A stretch of DNA of 64,000 nt from positions 1-64,000 of the forward strand of contig CASFCL010000005.1 in the NCBI GenBank assembly GCA_949293255.1, given 5' to 3'. Made by a program: the position numbers and the translations under genes. This DNA comes from an uncultured bacterium. GTDB taxonomy: Bacteria; Bacillota_I; Bacilli_A; RFN20; CAG-826. The notes below the pieces were generated by a model. The model saw nothing but the letters and a program-made list of their open reading frames with translations, was not told the origin of the DNA and made no database searches. This document shows positions 19,557 through 58,266 of the stretch, piece after piece (position 1 is the first letter of the stretch; each line of letters starts with the position of its first letter).

Positions 19557-19717
19557 AACTTAAAGTTTATAAGCGATAATTAAAAATAAAACGGACGCAC
19601 AAGTTCTGCGTCCGTCGTAATAGTCATCATTAATATAAATTTATTACATTTACTGTAGCTATTTACCAATTAATCAGTATTAATCTGGTGAGAATGGACG
19701 CTCTTCTTTCTACGTGC
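19557..19717 (-). promoter_or_regulatory. L20-type leader with attenuator, upstream of infC
   Basis: The leader RNA holds a strong terminator hairpin (19591-19615, arms ACGGACGCA/TGCGTCCGT) followed on the minus strand by TTTATTTTTA. An earlier leader segment contains GCGTCC (minus strand, 19701-19696), which can pair with the GGACGC of the terminator arm and so form a competing structure. This is the layout of the L20 leader of Bacillus infC-rpmI-rplT, where L20 binding favours termination. Confidence 0.75.
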
Positions 19718-19752: not shown

Positions 19753-19816
19753 GGAAAATTAGTCAATATTTAAAAATTATTTATCTTAAAGTTTTTACAT
19801 TAAAAGTAGTAGGATT

Positions 19817-19861
19817 TGTAAAATAAATGTAAAATAGATAGGTGAAAGAAGATATTTTACA
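19817..19861 (+). promoter_or_regulatory. Pho-box-like repeats upstream of the HAD-MFS-GDPD operon
   Basis: TGTAAA occurs at 19817 and 19828, exactly 11 bases apart, and the reverse unit TTTACA occurs at 19794 and 19856. Arms ATGTAAAATA/TATTTTACAT (19827-19836 and 19853-19862) form a perfect inverted repeat. The B. subtilis PhoP site is TT(A/C/T)A(C/T)A repeated with 4-6 bases between. The same 11-base period occurs before pstS in this window. Confidence 0.45.
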
Positions 19862-19888
19862 TTTTTTAAAATAAAATATAGAGAAGTT

Positions 19889-20530
19889 ATGGATAGAGCG
19901 ATATTTTTTGATTTAGATGGTACTTTATGGGACGCAATTTCTTCTTTATGCATAAGTTGGAATAAAGCGATGGAGGAACATAATTTACCTTATCGATTTG
20001 ATGAAATAAAAATGATGTCTTATATGGGATTAACTCCTATTGAAACTGCTCCTTTAGCTTTTCCTGATGTTTCTATTGATAAAGGATTAGAATATTTTAA
20101 AATTTGCTTAGATAGTGAAATTAAATATTTAAGAACAAATCCTGGAAAAATGTATGATGAAGAAAGAGAAATTTTATCGATGCTATCGAAGAAATATCCA
20201 CTTTTTATCGTTTCAAATTCTGATAAAGGTTATATTGAAGATTATTTAGATTCACTCAATATGAATGAGTATTTTGTTGATCATGTTTGTGCTGGCGACA
20301 CTGGCTTAGAGAAGTGGGAAAATATTTTATTTTTAAAATCAAAATATGAGATTAAAGAAGTAATTTATGTTGGAGATACTTTAAAAGATTATAAAGAAGC
20401 TACTAAAGCAAAAGTTAAATTTATTCATGCTAGTTATGGCTTTGGAAAGATAGACGAAAAGGTTTTTAAAATATCTAACTTAAAAGAAATGTTAGATATT
20501 GTTGATACAGTTTTTGATACTTTTAATTAA
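19889..20530 (+). CDS. HAD-family hydrolase, phosphoglycolate-phosphatase-like
   Basis: A 213-residue cytoplasmic phosphatase of the haloacid dehalogenase superfamily. Motif I FFDLDGTLWD (nucleophile D8, D10), motif II FIVSNSDKGY near residue 110, and motif III/IV EVIYVGDTLKDYKEA near residues 166-180 are complete. The cap between residues 15 and 85 is the small helical type. The substrate is unknown. It leads a run with an MFS transporter and a glycerophosphodiesterase, so a phosphorylated product of that pathway is likely. GAGAAG lies just before the ATG. Confidence 0.85.
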   Translation: MDRAIFFDLDGTLWDAISSLCISWNKAMEEHNLPYRFDEIKMMSYMGLTPIETAPLAFPDVSIDKGLEYFKICLDSEIKYLRTNPGKMYDEEREILSMLSKKYPLFIVSNSDKGYIEDYLDSLNMNEYFVDHVCAGDTGLEKWENILFLKSKYEIKEVIYVGDTLKDYKEATKAKVKFIHASYGFGKIDEKVFKISNLKEMLDIVDTVFDTFN

Positions 20531-20548
20531 AAAGAGGAGGAAAAACAT

Positions 20549-21991
20549 ATGGAAAATCAACAAATCGTGCAACAAAGTAGTGAAAGTTCGCCTTTAAAAT
20601 TAAATTTAAAGAGAACAATTATTATCGGCTTTGCTTTCTTTGGAATTCTTTTATTCTGGCAAGTTTATGACTCTTGGTGCTCACCTTTTTTAACAAGGCT
20701 TTTCCAAGATGCATTTAACATTACTGATGCAAAAGAAGTTCAATATTTAGTTGGTATTATCATGGCTTTAGATAATTTAGCTGCGTTAATTTTACTTCCA
20801 ATATTTGGAAAATTATCAGATAAAACTAAAACGCCAATTGGTAAGAGAATGCCTTATATTTTGGTAGGAACTTTAGTTAGTGCAATTTGTTTCCCATTTA
20901 TTCCAGTAGCATTCCATTATAACAATGCAGTTGGCGTCATTATTTTAATGGCAATTGTCGTTATCTTTATGATGATGTACAGAAATCCAGCTGTTAGTTT
21001 GATGCCTGATATGACTCCAAAACCATTAAGATCAAAAGCAAATGCAATCATTAATATTATGGGTTATATTGGTGGAGCTTTTGCAACTGTTGTTGGAATT
21101 GTATTTGTTTTAAGTCAATATTTAGGAACCGAAACAAATAAAGATCACACCTGGCAATATAACAACATCTGGGCAATTGAAATTCCTTTCCTCGTTGCCT
21201 CAGCTTTAATGATAGTTTCTTGCTTAGTTTTATTCTTCTCTATCAAAGAAAATAAGATTGCAGAAGAAGTTAAATTAGACATGGAAAGAGGAGAAGCAAT
21301 GTCTGAAGTTAAAGGTATTGCTGATGACAATCAAAAGATGTCTAAAAACGTAAAAACCATGCTAATCCTTATTCTTTTAGCAGAATTCTTCTGGTTTATG
21401 GCCGATAATGGTATCGGAACTTTCATGCAAAATTATACAATTTCTTACCTTCAAACGTCTTCAGGAAGCAACATGATCAATACAATTGTTGGTGGTGTTG
21501 GAAGCGTAATTGGTTTTGTAGTTGGTGGAATTATTGCTAGTAAAATTGGAAGAAAATGGACTGTTTTTGGAGGCTTAGGAATTACTGTTCTTTCACTTCT
21601 TTTATGGTCAATTTTATCATTTGCTTTAGCTGATTTTGCTAAAGGAAGTGGCGAATATCCATGGTATTTATATATCGTATTTTTTGTTAAAGGATTTGGC
21701 ATGTCATTAGTTCATGTTAACTCTTATCCAATGGTTGTTGAACTTTGCTCATCTAAAAAGATTGGACAATTTACAGGATATTATTATGCATCTTCAATGA
21801 TTGCTCAAACAGTTACTCCAATGTTATTTGGCTTACTTTTGTTAAACGAAAATTTTGATTTCACAATTCTTCCTGTCTACGCTCTTATTTGCACAGCTAT
21901 CGCACTTGGAATATTCTTCTTTGTTAAAAATGTTGAAACAAAAAAGACAGATTTTAAGAAAGGTTTAGAAAGTTTAGACCAAGGTGACTAA
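20549..21991 (+). CDS. MFS transporter (SLC45/GPH-like)
   Basis: A 480-residue inner-membrane carrier with about 12 membrane segments. The first half contains GKLSDKTKTPIGKRMPYILVG, the loop 2-3 motif in the form seen in the SLC45/glycoside-pentoside-hexuronide-type transporters, and DSWCSPFLTRLF in helix 1. A similar loop IASKIGRKWT lies in the second half. The Lys/Glu-rich stretch after helix 6 is the central cytoplasmic loop. Substrate is probably a sugar or glycerol-type compound; the adjacent glycerophosphodiesterase and HAD phosphatase point to glycerophosphodiesters or a glycoside. Eighteen bases separate it from the HAD gene and GAGGAGG precedes its start. Confidence 0.85.
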   Translation: MENQQIVQQSSESSPLKLNLKRTIIIGFAFFGILLFWQVYDSWCSPFLTRLFQDAFNITDAKEVQYLVGIIMALDNLAALILLPIFGKLSDKTKTPIGKRMPYILVGTLVSAICFPFIPVAFHYNNAVGVIILMAIVVIFMMMYRNPAVSLMPDMTPKPLRSKANAIINIMGYIGGAFATVVGIVFVLSQYLGTETNKDHTWQYNNIWAIEIPFLVASALMIVSCLVLFFSIKENKIAEEVKLDMERGEAMSEVKGIADDNQKMSKNVKTMLILILLAEFFWFMADNGIGTFMQNYTISYLQTSSGSNMINTIVGGVGSVIGFVVGGIIASKIGRKWTVFGGLGITVLSLLLWSILSFALADFAKGSGEYPWYLYIVFFVKGFGMSLVHVNSYPMVVELCSSKKIGQFTGYYYASSMIAQTVTPMLFGLLLLNENFDFTILPVYALICTAIALGIFFFVKNVETKKTDFKKGLESLDQGD

Positions 21992-21992
21992 T

Positions 21993-22733
21993 ATGAATAA
22001 GCAAAAAGTTATAAATAAGTTGCATCCTTTATTTAAAAAAGGTGTTGCTCATAGAGGTTTACATAACGAAAACGATACAGAAAATAGCCTTGCAGCCTTT
22101 AAAAATGCAAAAGATCATCAAGTTCCAATTGAACTTGATGTTCATCTTACTTTTGATGATCAATTAATTGTTTGCCATGACTCTGAATTAAAAAGAGTCA
22201 CCTCTAGAGATGGAGTTATTGAACAATTATCATTAACAGCAATTAAGGAAGACTACGTCTTGTTAAATGGTGAACAACTTCCTACTTTAAAAGAAGTTTT
22301 AGATTTAATTAATGAAAGTGTACCAATTGTTATTGAATTAAAACCAGATACAAAGACTAAAAATTATAAAAAGTTAGCTTTGAAAGTTTTAGATGAACTT
22401 AAAAACGTAAAAGATAAATCTAAATTTATGATTATTAGCTTTTATCCTCAATGCTTATTCCCATTTAAAAATAAAGGATTTATTAGGGCTTTGCTTTTAT
22501 CAATTCATCATCAAAAAGTTTATTTCTTTAGACACTTTTTTGAAGCTTTAGATGTTGAACAAACATATTTTAAAATCAAAAAATACCAAGACATGAATAA
22601 AAATAAATATGTTATGGCTTGGACAATTACAAATCAAAAAGAATTAGATAATGTAATTGATTATGTTGATAACATAACTTATCAAGAAATTGATCCTCAA
22701 TTTATTATCGATACTCTTGATAAGAAGTACTAA
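21993..22733 (+). CDS. Glycerophosphodiester phosphodiesterase
   Basis: Hydrolyses glycerophosphodiesters to sn-glycerol-3-phosphate and an alcohol. Family landmarks are GVAHRGLHNENDTENS (catalytic HRG and EN-S), ELDVHLTFDDQLIVCHD (metal E-x-D and catalytic H-D), and IELKPDTKT (E-x-K). At about 246 residues it has no signal peptide, so it is the cytoplasmic type. I prefer ATG 21993 with AAGGTGA ahead; a GTG nine bases earlier is also possible. It overlaps no gene but abuts the MFS stop, which links transport and hydrolysis. Such enzymes belong to the Pho regulon in B. subtilis. Confidence 0.92.
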   Translation: MNKQKVINKLHPLFKKGVAHRGLHNENDTENSLAAFKNAKDHQVPIELDVHLTFDDQLIVCHDSELKRVTSRDGVIEQLSLTAIKEDYVLLNGEQLPTLKEVLDLINESVPIVIELKPDTKTKNYKKLALKVLDELKNVKDKSKFMIISFYPQCLFPFKNKGFIRALLLSIHHQKVYFFRHFFEALDVEQTYFKIKKYQDMNKNKYVMAWTITNQKELDNVIDYVDNITYQEIDPQFIIDTLDKKY

Positions 22734-27438: not shown

Positions 27439-27464
27439 GCACTAAATCATTAAAAATAATCAAT

Positions 27465-27533
27465 TGTAAAGAAATTCATTTAATTTTTTACAATTTCTTT
27501 ACAACTTTAAGATATTTTGAAATCGGCATAATA
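27465..27533 (+). promoter_or_regulatory. PhoP-box-like promoter of the pst operon
   Basis: TTTACA at 27487 and 27498 are direct repeats with an 11-base period (5-base gap), the B. subtilis PhoP-box layout. An inverted TGTAAA at 27465 and the arms TTGTAAAGAAAT/ATTTCTTTACAA make a perfect 12-base inverted repeat. A likely -10, CATAAT, is at 27528-27533. The location in front of pstS fits phosphate-starvation activation by the PhoP-type regulator encoded in the same cluster. Confidence 0.7.
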
Positions 27534-27577: not shown

Positions 27578-28513
27578 ATGAAGAAAAAAATGTTAAGTGT
27601 TCTCGTATTTGGATTAGTAGTTGGTGCGGGATTAGTGTCGTGTGGTGGAAGTAGTGAATTTGATAACACAAGAAATATTACTTGTTATACAAGAGATACA
27701 ACCAGTGGTACAAGAGACGGATTTTTCTCAGGTATCGGACTTAAAGATGCTGCAGAAAACAATGCTCCATTAAAAGAAGGAACTGTTACAGTTGCAAGTA
27801 ATGGTGAAATGATTAGTTCTTTAAAAAATGATGTTTATGGAATTGGTTACTTTTCTTTATCTTCATTAGCTACTTCAGATTTAAAAGGTGTTACCTACAA
27901 TGATGTAGTTCCATCAGAAGCTAATGTTATTAACGGAACTTATGGATTAACCCGTAATTTTAACTATTGTGTTAGAGACGATTTCAATAATTCAACAGTC
28001 GGACAAATTGTAGATGCATTTCTTGCATATATGTTTTCAACTGATGGCCAATTAATTATTGAAAATGAAGGTGGTATTGTTAAAACCGATGCAACTTATT
28101 CATGGGATAGTGTAAAAGCAAATTATCCAGTTACAACTCAAAACAATAGTTCAGTTACTGTTAGATTTGGCGGGTCAACTTCAGTTCAAGGAATCGCAAC
28201 TGCATTAACAAGCGCTTTCTCAAAATTATGTGGAAACTTTGTTGCAAATCACAATCATAGAGGAAGTGGTGATGCATACAAAAATACTCAAGGGGATAAT
28301 AAAGATAGCTCAACTGGTCTTGATATAGGTTTTGCAAGTAGAGAATTTAACCTTGATACTACAGAACCTTTAAGTGCAGATAGTTATGGATTAATTTGTG
28401 TTGATGCAATTGTTGTAGCAGCAAATAAAGAAAATCCAATTGAAAAAATTACCGACGAAGAATTAGTTGATATGTATACTGGTGAAGTTTCAACTTGGAG
28501 TGAAATTTTATAA
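27578..28513 (+). CDS. pstS: Phosphate-binding lipoprotein PstS, halves in reversed order
   Basis: Extracellular phosphate receptor of the Pst importer. A lipoprotein signal ends in GLVSCGG (lipidated Cys at residue 22). In most PstS proteins the GSTSV phosphate loop is N-terminal and the SGTRD loop follows. Here the order is reversed: TTSGTRDGFF near residue 45, NDVYGIGYFSLSS near residue 90 and FSTDGQLIIENEGG near residue 155 come first, then FGGSTSVQGIATALTSAF near residue 195, GFASREF near residue 252 and YTGEVSTWSEI at the end. I recall this permuted order in other Firmicutes PstS. GGAG precedes the ATG. It opens the pst-pho operon. Confidence 0.93.
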   Translation: MKKKMLSVLVFGLVVGAGLVSCGGSSEFDNTRNITCYTRDTTSGTRDGFFSGIGLKDAAENNAPLKEGTVTVASNGEMISSLKNDVYGIGYFSLSSLATSDLKGVTYNDVVPSEANVINGTYGLTRNFNYCVRDDFNNSTVGQIVDAFLAYMFSTDGQLIIENEGGIVKTDATYSWDSVKANYPVTTQNNSSVTVRFGGSTSVQGIATALTSAFSKLCGNFVANHNHRGSGDAYKNTQGDNKDSSTGLDIGFASREFNLDTTEPLSADSYGLICVDAIVVAANKENPIEKITDEELVDMYTGEVSTWSEIL

Positions 28514-28518
28514 AATAA

Positions 28519-28533
28519 CCTAGTTTTGCTAGG
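28519..28533 (+). terminator. Weak hairpin between pstS and pstC
   Basis: CCTAG and CTAGG pair around a five-base loop, with a short ATTTTG after it. It may be a partial terminator or a 3' end stabiliser that keeps pstS mRNA more abundant than the permease genes, a common pattern for binding proteins. Confidence 0.35.
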
Positions 28534-28546
28534 ATTTTGAGCACAA

Positions 28547-29485
28547 ATGGATGGTTTGGAGAAAAATATTAAGCATAAAAAAATTACCGATTTAATATCA
28601 AAAATCGCCTTTTTAACTATCACCACCATTTGTGCTTCAGTCATTGTTGTTATTGTAGCGATCATTGCAATTAGAGGGTTTACTCCTTTCTTTACAGATT
28701 ATGTTGTAGATGGAGAAACTGTAAGAGTAAACTTTTTTGATTTTTTAACTGGATTAAGTTGGGAAAGAGGAAGTGCAGATTACGGAGTATTATTCATTTT
28801 TATTGATACTCTTTATATAACTTTTTTATCCTTATTAATTTCAGTGCCAATATCAATACTGACTGCTTTATTTATTGTAAGAATTGCACCAAAGTGGCTT
28901 AGTAATATTTTAAATGTAAGCGTTGAGCTACTTTCTTCGGTTCCATCGATTATTTTTGGTTTATTTGGAGCCGGAATTATTGCTGTAATAATTAGAGATA
29001 TAGGAAGCCTTATTGGAATACAAACTGCCGGAGGACTTTCAATCTTAACAACTGTAATTGTATTATCAATGATGATTATGCCAACAATTACAATGGTTTC
29101 AGTTACTTCTTTAAAAGCAGTAAAACCTGAGTTAATTAATGGATCACTTGCATTAGGAGCAAGTAAAACACAAACCGATTTTAAAATTTGTCTAACAAGT
29201 GCAAAAAGCGGAATTATGGGTGGAGTCATTTTAGGAGTTGGTAGAGCATTAGGTGAAGCTACAGCTGTAACAATGGTTTGTGGAAATATCGATGTAGGGC
29301 CAACTTTTGGTCTTTTTGAAACAACAAGAACTTTAACAAGTACAATGCTTAGTGGATTCCATGAAGCAAGTGGAGTAACTTATGATATTCGCTTTAGTGT
29401 TGGGGTAGTTTTAATTATTTTGATTTTAGTTACAAATATTATTTTAAATTTTGTAAAAAAGCGTATTGGGAAGATGGGAAATTAG
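28547..29485 (+). CDS. pstC: Phosphate ABC transporter permease PstC
   Basis: One of two membrane subunits of the phosphate importer. About six membrane segments in 312 residues. The permease motif that docks on the ATPase is NGSLALGASKTQTDFKICL at about residue 196 (the EAA-type loop), preceded by LLSSVPSIIFGLFGAGI, which is typical of PstC/PstA. GRALGEATAVTMVCGN near residue 233 is a further signature. No strong ribosome-binding site is seen before ATG 28547. The stop is next to the pstA start. Confidence 0.95.
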   Translation: MDGLEKNIKHKKITDLISKIAFLTITTICASVIVVIVAIIAIRGFTPFFTDYVVDGETVRVNFFDFLTGLSWERGSADYGVLFIFIDTLYITFLSLLISVPISILTALFIVRIAPKWLSNILNVSVELLSSVPSIIFGLFGAGIIAVIIRDIGSLIGIQTAGGLSILTTVIVLSMMIMPTITMVSVTSLKAVKPELINGSLALGASKTQTDFKICLTSAKSGIMGGVILGVGRALGEATAVTMVCGNIDVGPTFGLFETTRTLTSTMLSGFHEASGVTYDIRFSVGVVLIILILVTNIILNFVKKRIGKMGN

Positions 29486-29486
29486 T

Positions 29487-30749
29487 ATGGAAAACAAGAA
29501 TTTAAAAATACGTAAAACAAAAGATATCTTGTTAAATTCAATGACATATTTATTTTCTAGTTTTGGAATTGTGATTTTGCTTGCCATTATTATTTATGTT
29601 TTTGCAAACGGACTTCCAAACTTATCTTGGGATTTAATTTCAAGTGATTACACCTCATATACTTATACTTTAAGAAGTGAAACACCTGAAAATATAAATG
29701 GTAGTTTAGTTTATGAAGATCCAAATATTGAAGGTTCTTATTTTTCATCAAAATGGGGAATTTCTTTATATGATGGTAATGATGTTGAAGGGAATGCAGC
29801 TATAAAAGTAGCTCATATTGATGAAAATTCACCTTTAAATAATATGATTGATACAACTTCTGAAAAACTTGAATACATTAGTTTAACTGTTGAAGATGAA
29901 ATTTCGATTATCCAAGTTGAATATTATTCATTAGATGAAAATGGAGCAACTGTTACAAATTATTTAAATGCATTAAGTAGAAGAGGTGCAGAAAATATGA
30001 TTAATGTACTTAACCAAGGAGAGTATATTTCTTCTTTAATGTTAAATACGCATGGTGGAGGAATAAGAGGTTCATTAATTTCCACCTTATACTTAATTCT
30101 TTTTACTTTATTATTCGCTTTACCTTTAGGAATTGGAGGTGCAATTTATTTAAATGAATATGCTCCAAAAAATAAATTTACGAATATTTTAAGATCCTTC
30201 ATAGATATGATTGGAGGAGTTCCTTCAATTATATTTGGACTCTTAGGTTTAACAATTTTTGTTCCAATTGTTTCATCAATAACCGGAAGTAATAGCGGAA
30301 CAATATTGAGTGGGTCTTTAACAATGGCATGCATGCTTTTACCTACAATTATAAAAACTACAGAGGAATCTTTAAAAGTTATACCGGATAGTTATAGAAA
30401 CGGATCTTTAGCTTTAGGAGCAAGTAAAACACAAACGATCTTTAAAGTAATTATTCCTAACGCTTTGCCAGGAATTCTAACTTCAGTTTTATTAGCGATA
30501 GGAAGAATTATTGGAGAGTCTGCAGCATTAATTTTTGCGATTGGAACGATGATTATGGATTCACCAACACCAATTACTCAAGGTACTTCTTTAGCTGTTC
30601 ATATCTGGGTTTTGGTCGGTGGAGAAAATCCTAATTATGGAGCAGCTTCAGCTATAGCAATTATCATTTTACTTGTTGTATTTTTAATGAATATATTAGT
30701 TAAATTTATTGGTTATAGATTCCGCAAAAAGCAATTAGGAAGAGGATAA
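29487..30749 (+). CDS. pstA: Phosphate ABC transporter permease PstA with extra extracytoplasmic domain
   Basis: Second permease subunit. The C-terminal 240 residues are standard: GVPSIIFGLLGLTIF, then RNGSLALGASKTQTIFKVII and GRIIGESAALIFAIG. Unlike typical PstA (about 280-300 residues), about 140 residues are inserted between the first membrane segment (about 22-43) and the second (about 192-214). The insert is hydrophilic, Asn/Ser/Asp/Glu-rich, and would lie outside the cell. It contains HIDENSPLNNMI and IQVEYYSLDENG. I set ATG 29487; the longer frame from 29466 lies in the pstC end. The insert could touch PstS or be a separate sensor domain. Confidence 0.93.
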   Translation: MENKNLKIRKTKDILLNSMTYLFSSFGIVILLAIIIYVFANGLPNLSWDLISSDYTSYTYTLRSETPENINGSLVYEDPNIEGSYFSSKWGISLYDGNDVEGNAAIKVAHIDENSPLNNMIDTTSEKLEYISLTVEDEISIIQVEYYSLDENGATVTNYLNALSRRGAENMINVLNQGEYISSLMLNTHGGGIRGSLISTLYLILFTLLFALPLGIGGAIYLNEYAPKNKFTNILRSFIDMIGGVPSIIFGLLGLTIFVPIVSSITGSNSGTILSGSLTMACMLLPTIIKTTEESLKVIPDSYRNGSLALGASKTQTIFKVIIPNALPGILTSVLLAIGRIIGESAALIFAIGTMIMDSPTPITQGTSLAVHIWVLVGGENPNYGAASAIAIIILLVVFLMNILVKFIGYRFRKKQLGRG

Positions 30750-30752
30750 AAT

Positions 30753-31565
30753 ATGGAAAATGTTATAGAGCAAAATGAGATTTTAAATATAGATAAAAAT
30801 CTAAATGAAGATGAAAATATTGATATTTTTACCATTGAAAAAGTTAATTTATTTTATGGAAATAATCATGTTTTAAAGGATATTTCGATGAAAATAAAAG
30901 ATAAAGAGGTAACAGCTTTTATTGGTCCTAGTGGATGTGGAAAGTCAACTTTACTTAGATGTTTGAATCGAATGAATGATTTAATTCAAGGATGTAAAGT
31001 TGAAGGATTAATAAAGTATGAAGATCAGGATATTAAAGATATAAATGTTTTAACTTTAAGAACAAATGTAGGTATGGTTTTCCAAAATCCTAACCCATTC
31101 CCAATGTCAATTTATGATAACATCGCCTATGGTCCTAGATGTGCTGGAATAAAGAAAAAAGAAATCTTAAATCAAATTGTTGAAGATTCATTAAAGAAAG
31201 CTGCTTTATATGATGAAGTTAAGGATAGATTAAAGGACAGTGCTTTAGGTTTAAGTGGTGGTCAACAACAAAGATTATGTATAGCTAGATGTATTGCAAT
31301 GTCTCCAAAAGTAATTTTAATGGATGAACCTACTTCAGCTTTAGATCCAATTGCAACAAGTAAGATTGAAGATTTAATTAGAGAGTTAAAAAAAGATTAC
31401 ACAATAATAATTGTCACACATAACATGCAACAAGCTACTAGAATTAGCGATAACACCGCATTTTTCTTACTTGGTGAGGTTGTTGAATTTGATAAAACTG
31501 AAAGATTATTTAAATCGCCACAAGATAAAAGAACAGAAGATTATATTACCGGGAGGTTTGGTTAA
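30753..31565 (+). CDS. pstB: Phosphate ABC transporter ATPase PstB
   Basis: Powers phosphate import. Walker [10 protein letters not shown] lies near residues 55-63, [10 protein letters not shown] follows (a PstB mark), the Q-loop is in [20 protein letters not shown], the ABC signature is [13 protein letters not shown] near residue 167, and Walker B is [23 protein letters not shown] and the ending EDYITGRFG complete the family pattern. The first 27 residues ([20 protein letters not shown]) form an extra, acidic N-terminus. It begins 4 bases after pstA. Confidence 0.97.
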
Positions 31566-31567
31566 TT

Positions 31568-32203
31568 ATGAAACAAATCGAAGAAGAAATCGAATATTTA
31601 AATCAAATGTTAATGAAGATGGGAGATATTGTTCTTGAGAACATAAACAACTCCTATAGTTATTATAAAGGTGAAATTAAAGATCCTCATATCAACGATG
31701 ATATTGTCGATAAGCATGAAAGATTAATTGAAGAAATGGCTTTAGATATCATGGTTAAGGAAAAACTTTTTGCTAGCGATCTTCGTAGAGTTAGTGGAAT
31801 TTTACTTTTAGTTAATGATATTGAAAGAATTGGTGATCATGCTGAAGATATTGAAACATACGCAACTAAACTTAAAAAATGTAAGAAAAATAATGTCATA
31901 AATATTGATGAAATATTTTTACTTACACTCAAAATGGTTAATGACTGTATCGTATCTTTTGTCAAAAACGATGCAGAACTGGCACATTCTGTCATAAAAA
32001 ATGATGAAATCATTGATAATTTGTTCGAAAAATGTATCGAAAATTTAAAAGAAAAGAGTGAAATAATTAAAGATAGTGGTTATATTATTTACACAACACT
32101 TATTATAAAATATATAGAGCGTATTGCTGATCATGCTGTCAATATCGCTGAATGGGTAATTTATATTATTAATGGTTACCATAAAGACAAAAAGATTTTT
32201 TAG
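31568..32203 (+). CDS. phoU: Phosphate regulator PhoU
   Basis: Two-repeat helical bundle of 211 residues that links the Pst importer to the sensor kinase and lowers signalling when phosphate is plentiful. Each repeat has a metal-binding D/E-x-x-x-D pattern: VNDIERIGDHAEDI near residue 88, and IKYIERIADHAVNIAEW near residue 187. MKQIEEEIEYLNQMLMKMG at the start is typical. It starts 3 bases after pstB and is followed by the two-component genes. Confidence 0.95.
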   Translation: MKQIEEEIEYLNQMLMKMGDIVLENINNSYSYYKGEIKDPHINDDIVDKHERLIEEMALDIMVKEKLFASDLRRVSGILLLVNDIERIGDHAEDIETYATKLKKCKKNNVINIDEIFLLTLKMVNDCIVSFVKNDAELAHSVIKNDEIIDNLFEKCIENLKEKSEIIKDSGYIIYTTLIIKYIERIADHAVNIAEWVIYIINGYHKDKKIF

Positions 32204-32211
32204 AGGAAAAG

Positions 32212-32892
32212 ATGAGCTACTTAATTTATTCATTAGAGGATGATAAAAATATTTCTAGAATCATTAATGTTTCATTAACTCATCAAGGCTATGAAGTTAA
32301 ATCTTTTGAAAACGGAAAGAGTTTTCTTGATGCATTTTATAGCCAAAAACCAGATCTTATTTTACTTGATATGATGCTTCCTGATATTGATGGAAGAGAT
32401 ATTTTGAAGATTATTAGAGATGATAGTGATAATGAAAATATTGGAATTATTATAATTTCAGCTAAATCAATGGCACTTGATAAAGTTGATGCTTTAGATT
32501 TAGGAGCTGATGATTATATTTCAAAACCTTTTGATATTTTAGAATTAACAAGTAGAGTAAATGTTCAATTTAGACATAAAGAAAAATTAGAAAATAAGAA
32601 TGAATTGAAATATAAACAATTTAGATTATTACCTTCAAGCAAGGAAGTTTTTATAGATAACGAACAAATAAAATTTACAAAAAAAGAGTTCGATATCTTC
32701 TATCTTTTAGTGAAAAATCATGGACAAACTGTTTCTAGAGAACAATTAATTAACGTTATTTGGGGTGAAAACAAAGATTTAGAAACTAGAACTATTGATA
32801 TGCATATAAAATCAATTAGAAATAAACTTAATGATAAAGATTCTAAAATCATTGTTTCATATTATGGAGTTGGCTATTGTTTTAACTTATGA
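32212..32892 (+). CDS. phoP: Response regulator, PhoP type
   Basis: OmpR-family DNA-binding response regulator of 226 residues. The receiver has acidic ED at 9-11, phosphoacceptor D53 in LILLDMMLPDIDG, and K in DDYISKPFD near residue 104. The C-terminal winged helix contains TKKEFDIFYLLVKNHGQTVSREQL and RTIDMHIKSIRNKL. Position within pst-phoU and before a HisK gene makes PhoP the likely identity. It would bind the TTTACA repeats before pstS. It ends in TGA overlapping the next ATG (ATGA), proof that UGA stops here. Confidence 0.9.
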   Translation: MSYLIYSLEDDKNISRIINVSLTHQGYEVKSFENGKSFLDAFYSQKPDLILLDMMLPDIDGRDILKIIRDDSDNENIGIIIISAKSMALDKVDALDLGADDYISKPFDILELTSRVNVQFRHKEKLENKNELKYKQFRLLPSSKEVFIDNEQIKFTKKEFDIFYLLVKNHGQTVSREQLINVIWGENKDLETRTIDMHIKSIRNKLNDKDSKIIVSYYGVGYCFNL

Positions 32893-34556
32893 GAATTAGA
32901 ATTGTTTTAAGTAATTTCTTTATTTTACTTACTTGTTTAGTACTTTTTCTTTCTGGAGGAAGTATCATAATTTCTTCAATAAATGAAACGACAACTCATA
33001 ACGAATTACAAAATTATTTAGAAGTTGCTTGTAGATATTTTGATGGTTCAAACGCAGATGATTTAGGTAAATTATTAACTTTTGAAAACGATTATTTAAG
33101 GGTTAGTGTCATCGGAATTGATGGTGATGTTATCTATGATAACTTTGAAGATGAATCCACTATGGAAAATCACCTTAATAGACCTGAAATTTCATCTTTA
33201 GGATCTTTCCAGACAAGATATTCTGATACATTAGAAATAAACATGGTTTATTTAGCTAGACTTGATGATGGATATTATGTTCGCTTAGCAATTCCGGTTA
33301 GTATCGTTGATGACATAATTTATGGATTTAATCTCTATTCGGTTATTGCTTTATTAATCTTATTAATATTATCTTCAATTTCAATGTTATTTTTAACTAA
33401 AACTATTACTAAACCAATTACATTAGAGGTAAGAAGACTTGGAGCAGTTTTAAATATGAATCTTGATATCAAAGATGACGATGTTAAAACTTTATCTAAA
33501 CAAATTGAAATGGTTAGAGAAGAGCTAGATTCAGAAGTTAAAAAAGCAAATATTGAAAAAAATAAAGTCGACTATATTATCAATAATATTCAAGAAGGCT
33601 TAATAATTTTAAATGCTGTTAAAGAAGTAGTGCTTATAAATAAAGTTGCTTTAAGTGGTTTTGAATTAAAAAGTGAAGAAGTCTTAAATAAAAATTACTT
33701 ATATTTATTCAGAAATAATGAAATTGTTAATTTTGTTGATGAAGCTTTTAATAAAAAAGCAAATTTATCAAAAGAAATTAAATTGAATGACAAAAATTAT
33801 TTATTTGAATTTAATTATCTAAATGAAGATTGGAATAAAAAGAATGATGGTGGATCTTTATCAATTATCATGATTGATGTAACAAAATTAGATGAAGTTC
33901 AAAAAATGAAAAGAGATTTCTTTGCAAACGCATCTCATGAACTTAAGTCTCCTTTAACTTCAATTATCGGTAATTTGCAACTTTTAGACCAAAACTTTAT
34001 AAAAACTAAAAAAGAAAAAGATGAAGTTATAAAATCTTCAATCAAAGAAGCAAAACGTATGTCAAAAATCATTTCTGATATGCTTGAATTATCATATTTA
34101 GAAGGAAAAGAAAAAGTTAGAGTGGAGAATTTAAAATTAGATTCTTTTATCAATTCAATTGTTGAAAGATATCAACCTACTTTAAAAGAGAAAAATATTA
34201 AATTAAATTTAAATTTGACACCTGCTGAGATCGTAATAGAAGCAAATGATGCTGATTACTTACTTAGTAATTTAATTGATAACGCCATTAAATATACAAA
34301 TAGTGGTGGCATCATTAATATTGAATTATTAGAAAACCATTTAGTTATAGAAGATAATGGAATTGGTATAGCAAAAGAAGATCAAGAAAGAATATTTGAA
34401 AGATTCTATCGAGTCGATAAAGCAAGAAGTAAAGAGCTTGGTGGCACTGGATTAGGCTTATCAATTGTCAAACATATTTGCGTAAAATATGGTTATAAAA
34501 TAGAAGTAAATTCAGAAATTAATAAGGGTACAAAATTTACAATTATTTTTAAATAA
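32889..34556 (+). CDS. phoR: Sensor histidine kinase, PhoR type
   Basis: Membrane kinase of 555 residues that phosphorylates the neighbouring regulator. Membrane segments at about 4-26 and 150-172 flank an extracytoplasmic sensor of about 120 residues (FENDYLRVSVIGIDGDVIYD). A HAMP-like linker and a PAS domain (NIQEGLIILNAVKEVVLIN) follow. The HisKA box is FFANASHELKSPLTSI with H350; ATP-binding motifs are NLIDNAIKYT, IEDNGIGI, FERFYRVDKARS and GGTGLGLSI. Four-base overlap with the regulator gene indicates coupling. Confidence 0.9.
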   Translation: MRIRIVLSNFFILLTCLVLFLSGGSIIISSINETTTHNELQNYLEVACRYFDGSNADDLGKLLTFENDYLRVSVIGIDGDVIYDNFEDESTMENHLNRPEISSLGSFQTRYSDTLEINMVYLARLDDGYYVRLAIPVSIVDDIIYGFNLYSVIALLILLILSSISMLFLTKTITKPITLEVRRLGAVLNMNLDIKDDDVKTLSKQIEMVREELDSEVKKANIEKNKVDYIINNIQEGLIILNAVKEVVLINKVALSGFELKSEEVLNKNYLYLFRNNEIVNFVDEAFNKKANLSKEIKLNDKNYLFEFNYLNEDWNKKNDGGSLSIIMIDVTKLDEVQKMKRDFFANASHELKSPLTSIIGNLQLLDQNFIKTKKEKDEVIKSSIKEAKRMSKIISDMLELSYLEGKEKVRVENLKLDSFINSIVERYQPTLKEKNIKLNLNLTPAEIVIEANDADYLLSNLIDNAIKYTNSGGIINIELLENHLVIEDNGIGIAKEDQERIFERFYRVDKARSKELGGTGLGLSIVKHICVKYGYKIEVNSEINKGTKFTIIFK

Positions 34557-58214: not shown

Positions 58215-58266
58215 ATATTGGGGTTTTGCAAGGTTTTTTAGAAAATAATCAAGTTTTACAAAATTA

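Follow-up and report, generated by a model that had tools for sequence, protein, structure and literature searches.

A three-gene operon in an uncultured Bacilli genome appears to be a conserved module for the uptake and breakdown of deacylated phospholipids, preceded by a reversed, species-specific copy of a regulatory box; we assign this reading a probability of about 0.6. The genome is small (1.25 Mb) and AT-rich (29.5% G+C), and the operon lies in the 64-kb stretch of contig C5 that was analyzed as a whole (the window). The operon encodes a HAD phosphatase, an MFS carrier and a glycerophosphodiester phosphodiesterase (GDPD). We propose that the MFS protein imports glycerophosphodiesters (both the substrate and the direction of transport are what we infer), that a cytoplasmic GDPD would split these compounds to sn-glycerol-3-phosphate and an alcohol, and that the HAD phosphatase may then take phosphate off glycerol-3-phosphate or another product. 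Such activity on glycerol-3-phosphate is known from HAD proteins (PMC9765544). Across the genus, the main role of the operon is probably the supply of glycerol-3-phosphate, carbon and phosphate.

Family matches confirmed the three functions that an initial annotation had read from the open reading frames. The first gene (19889-20530, + strand, 213 aa) codes for a HAD_2 protein (PF13419) with all membership motifs (DxDxT, S/T, K, GDxxxD), which occur here as DxDGT, S109, K142 and GDTxKD and are invariant in 16 congeneric sequences. The second gene (20549-21991, + strand, 480 aa) codes for the MFS carrier, and the third (21996-22733, + strand) for the GDPD (PF03009, 3.7e-19, over the cut-off), with the catalytic HRG, EN, ExD and HD residues invariant in 19 sequences. 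The gaps between these genes are 18 and 4 bases. No signal peptide is visible in the GDPD sequence, which suggests a cytoplasmic enzyme. The proposal that a diesterase and a phosphatase would fit phosphate scavenging holds up insofar as both enzymes make phosphorus chemistry plausible.

The carrier is harder to classify. It matches MFS_1 and, more weakly, MFS_2/GPH (PF13347, 57 bits against a 27-bit cut-off), but its score with the TIGR00792 gph model (54.7 bits) stays below the curated subfamily cut-off of 231 bits. The predicted structure (pLDDT 79.5) is an MFS fold that seems to resemble many groups, including MelB, SLC45A4, MFSD2A, EfpA and SUC1, and a PDB search with the protein sequence matched no solved structure. 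The label "SLC45-like" given earlier therefore has no more than loose backing from the family matches and a generic MFS fold.

Better, if circumstantial, guidance as to what this protein may carry comes from its neighbors. Orthologues are present in 24 of 26 congeneric genomes (61-74% identity), with only a few of them lacking a HAD gene before the MFS gene. Among wider relatives, a HAD gene lies upstream in 25 of 76 cases and a GDPD gene directly downstream in 57 of 78; relatives without GDPD have as neighbors a Zn-phospholipase-C-like gene (below the cut-off), a patatin or a cardiolipin-synthase-like PLD gene. Since GDPD adjoins the carrier this often, and phospholipase-like genes stand near it where GDPD is missing, a glycerophosphodiester carrier is the expected pattern, and an importer of these compounds is our best guess. 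To this extent the earlier suggestion of an importer for organic phosphate compounds stands, even though the fold and family matches are generic and some relatives lack both GDPD and HAD. The same generic resemblance to MelB, SLC45A4, MFSD2A and EfpA would also suit a carrier for something unrelated, such as a sugar, a drug or a lysophospholipid, with GDPD and HAD serving lipid turnover only; given the tight and wide linkage to GDPD and phospholipase-like genes, we find this alternative rather unlikely.

The distribution of glycerol-3-phosphate genes is consistent with the proposed role. In half of the congeners (13 of 26) we could not detect gpsA (PF07479); glpK, coding for glycerol kinase, is present in all 26, so that an external supply of glycerol-3-phosphate may be important to these bacteria. 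The presence of gpsA does not track the operon, and because the operon is near-universal with or without gpsA, this pattern is no test of its role.

The initial annotation had also noted that TTTACA/TGTAAA units with an 11-base period precede both this operon (19817 and 19828) and pstS (27487 and 27498), with perfect inverted arms at either site. All of this is correct. The pstS promoter (27477-27518, + strand) consists of a degenerate first box, the tandem TTTACA-N5-TTTACA at 27487-27503 and TAAGATATTTT as the -10 region. It overlaps an inverted repeat (27464-27504) with 13-bp arms, TTGTAAAGAAATT at 27464-27476 and AATTTCTTTACAA at 27492-27504. Downstream follow pstS-pstC-pstA-pstB-phoU (27578-32203, + strand) and genes for an OmpR-type response regulator and a histidine kinase (32212-34556, + strand), with best matches to PhoB-type and PnpS-type proteins below the curated cut-offs; this pair is the presumed reader of the box. 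As an aside, PstS (27578-28513) has its halves swapped relative to the usual profile, with residues 31-165 matching profile positions 161-291 and residues 186-309 matching 3-125. This permuted order has precedent, since the solved structure of a phosphate-binding protein PstS 2 (PDB entry 4h1x) aligns collinearly.

Comparison of the 26 congeneric genomes by pattern search leaves us with good confidence that TTTACA-N5-TTTACA represents the Pho box of this genus. Upstream of pstS, the exact tandem occurs in 11 of 19 genes and the TTWACA form in 18 of 19, the exception (G014) being TTTACA-N5-TTTACT with one mismatch. The usual form, found in nearly all, is TTTACA-N5-TTWACA-N4-TTTAC(A/T)-N4-TATGATATTTT, comprising three boxes and an extended -10. 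This three-box pattern gave 21 matches in the 26 genomes (17 before pstS, 3 between pstS and pstC, 1 before a small ORF) and none for the reversed control pattern. It has no match in the genome under study because the first pstS box is degenerate there. Two-box sites also occur at six pit genes (PHO4 family), and every one of the 21 two-box sites that the genus has at pstS, pstC and pit points forward. The conservation at pstS and pit, the three-box result against the control and the putative Pho box of the same form at Streptococcus pneumoniae pstS1 (TTTACACAATCTTTACA; PMC4913102) together argue for this assignment.

The sequence before the HAD-MFS-GDPD operon has the form of this box, but it is a reversed copy that is specific to this species. 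TGTAAA at 19817 and 19828 on the + strand reads as TTTACA-TTTAT-TTTACA on the - strand (19817-19833), which places the tandem 55 nt ahead of the start codon of the HAD gene, on the strand opposite to the genes that it precedes, unlike the tandem at pstS. This orientation had gone unmentioned before. The tandem overlaps a perfect 12-bp inverted repeat (19825-19864) with the arms AAATGTAAAATA (19825-19836) and TATTTTACATTT (19853-19864) and a 16-nt spacer. An RNA hairpin formed by these arms was ruled out as a special feature, since its folding z-score (-0.83) is ordinary. The outermost TTTACA unit (19794-19799, + strand) might be a weak -35 element of the operon, although a promoter scan found no good sigma-70 promoter on the + strand at this position. 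The site contains no third box, no TATGATATTTT and no -10 with the geometry seen at pst and pit; a 42-nt matrix built from pstS promoters scores it at -4.9, compared to 5.5 for pstS of the same genome, and gave no convincing match before the operon in any congener. A two-box direct repeat was absent upstream of all 23 other congeneric copies (one of which, in G009, is cut 64 nt upstream by a contig end). A search of both strands out to 350 nt likewise gave no two-box site at any of 80 MFS loci fetched from public genomes, a set that includes some of the congeneric species. Palindromes of the form TTTGTAAA-N6-TTTACAAA precede the same operon in two congeners (L016 and L021 among the loci), with a related one in a third, and may be the operator of another regulator.

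Further upstream lies the divergent infC gene with its own promoter (TTGACT-17-TATATT, 19752-19724). Its leader contains a strong terminator-like hairpin (19590-19616, - strand) that is a candidate attenuator; no Rfam family matched this stretch of the window, the hairpin included, or the ugp locus described below. A recurrent intergenic element, (A)TTTGCARGGTTTTT, was seen in many congeners (L020, L024, L028, L031, L073, L194 and others), sometimes within a terminator-like hairpin, and also in the window at 58217-58238.

A genome-wide search for the motif, as had been suggested with the Pho proposal, gave a divided answer. The exact pattern occurs at four sites in the 1.25-Mb genome, compared to none for the reversed pattern, yet the TTWACA form occurs four times in either version. 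Two of the exact sites are those before pstS and the HAD-MFS-GDPD operon, and another falls inside a thioredoxin-reductase-like coding sequence. The fourth points forward and lies 75 nt before a Ugp-like importer operon (G000:C12:20000-32900, L077), which encodes an ATPase, two permeases and lipoproteins, one of them P68/UgpB-like; after these come genes for a thermonuclease-like protein and a UshA-like 5'-nucleotidase. This operon is a likelier second Pho operon than HAD-MFS-GDPD. We saw no such site ahead of the nearest ugpC homologues (G001, G007), and in G014 a reversed two-box site precedes the homologous ugpA gene.

Whether the motif is equally frequent elsewhere was one question on which the Pho proposal had been said to turn. 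Outside pst and pit, the 26 genomes contain 25 intergenic two-box sites. The reversed control gives about 21 (30 control sites were inspected, of which 13 qualified, and this share was scaled to 49), so that there is no excess. We preferred the reversed pattern over a first-order Markov null, which yielded a much lower number of chance sites (1.5 per Mb, resting on only 3 simulated matches), because it is the more cautious control. On the basis of the reversed pattern in 26 genomes, the chance of a further site in the 64-kb window is about 0.09 anywhere and about 0.02 upstream of some gene. Several other genes carry such sites. Upstream of an Atg22-like (UMF1-type) MFS gene, a possible Pho member, the two-box site is reversed in three congeners and forward in one other, and several further congeners have degenerate boxes in forward orientation there (L055, L062, L070, L181, L240-L243). 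Two-box TTTACA/TGTAAA sites were also seen before a LacI/CcpA-like regulator gene in four congeners (L049, L063, L189, L195) and before a lipoprotein gene without Pfam match in two (L193, L199).

From the sequence data, Pho control of the HAD-MFS-GDPD operon in this species is doubtful, although a real prospect. The shared motif is a Pho box, as the initial annotation assumed, but Pho control as a rule for this operon did not survive: we rate membership as possible and go no further because the box is absent from the other copies, reversed, and of a type no commoner than the control outside pst and pit. Outright dismissal would nevertheless be too strong, since the chance of an upstream site in the window is only about 0.02. 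Similarly, reversal alone does not exclude function, because the Atg22-like homologues carry sites in both orientations, and absence from congeners is moderate evidence only, because the comparison is between species and the ugp site, too, is missing from its nearest homologues. About evenly balanced, in our judgment, is the view that AT-rich DNA produced the tandem by chance, or that it serves a different regulator, one recognizing TGTAAA repeats or palindromes. The lack of excess over the control, the palindromes before the operon in congeners and the sites before LacI/CcpA-like and lipoprotein genes speak for it; the low chance for this particular region and the absence of a short-spaced TTTGTAAA/TTTACAAA-type palindrome from the present copy speak against it.

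If Pho control is real, it could be activation or repression, with activation the likelier. For activation, the response regulator would bind the reversed tandem in phosphate starvation and switch on the three genes, a lineage-specific recruitment comparable to that of ugpQ or glpQ elsewhere. The site is one of four exact matches in the genome, two others precede pstS and the Ugp-like/nuclease/5'-nucleotidase operon, and the neighborhood is functionally apt. Ugp, GlpQ/UgpQ and UshA regularly belong to Pho regulons (PMC4415409). Set against the missing third box and -10 geometry, the low matrix score, the opposite orientation of all pst and pit sites and the lack of the site in 23 congeneric copies and 80 loci, this remains an unlikely reading. 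Repression at low phosphate, by PhoP bound just downstream of the possible -35 at 19794 so as to block the promoter, would suit the reversed orientation and has a precedent at Bacillus subtilis tagAB (PMC6232261). However, the position of this -35 is hypothetical given the promoter scan, and an organophosphate importer that is shut off in starvation makes little sense, which renders this variant very improbable.

Taken together, a Pho promoter with tandem boxes and an extended -10 is well supported for a genus of uncultured Bacilli from gut and rumen, a previously unassigned MFS family is pointed to as a likely glycerophosphodiester importer, and a single motif match near a plausible gene proves insufficient for regulon assignment. 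The genus pstS promoter resembles that of S. pneumoniae pstS1 in having TTTACA-N5-TTTACA about 75-90 nt before the gene, and differs in usually having a third box and an extended -10; the operon copy differs further in being reversed. Escherichia coli ugpBAECQ combines Pho-regulated glycerophosphodiester uptake with a diesterase, as proposed here, but relies on an ABC importer, and the present genome has a separate Ugp-like ABC operon with its own box. Transport of glycerophosphodiesters by carriers other than ABC importers has precedents in Mycoplasma GlpU and fungal Git1/Tgp1. In M. pneumoniae, GlpU (MPN421) is needed for glycerophosphocholine uptake and its gene is numbered beside that of the glycerophosphodiesterase GlpQ (MPN420); uptake is followed there by release of glycerol-3-phosphate, as we propose for the module here (PMC4766277). 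The likeness is one of gene arrangement and reported function; that report mentions no HAD gene, and no Pho box is reported. GPH/MFS_2 and SLC45/SUC carriers are similar to the MFS protein by fold and weak sequence match (MFS_2, MelB, SLC45A4, SUC1), although it falls below the curated GPH cut-off. Git1 and Tgp1 are eukaryotic and similar by function, as glycerophosphodiester carriers tied to the phosphate response, with tgp1 being a phosphate-acquisition gene (PMC10865970). Should the regulator have recruited the importer, diesterase and phosphatase in this species through the reversed two-box site, which seems improbable on present evidence, the operon would serve the use of phospholipid remnants when phosphate is short, as a bacterial non-ABC counterpart of these fungal systems.
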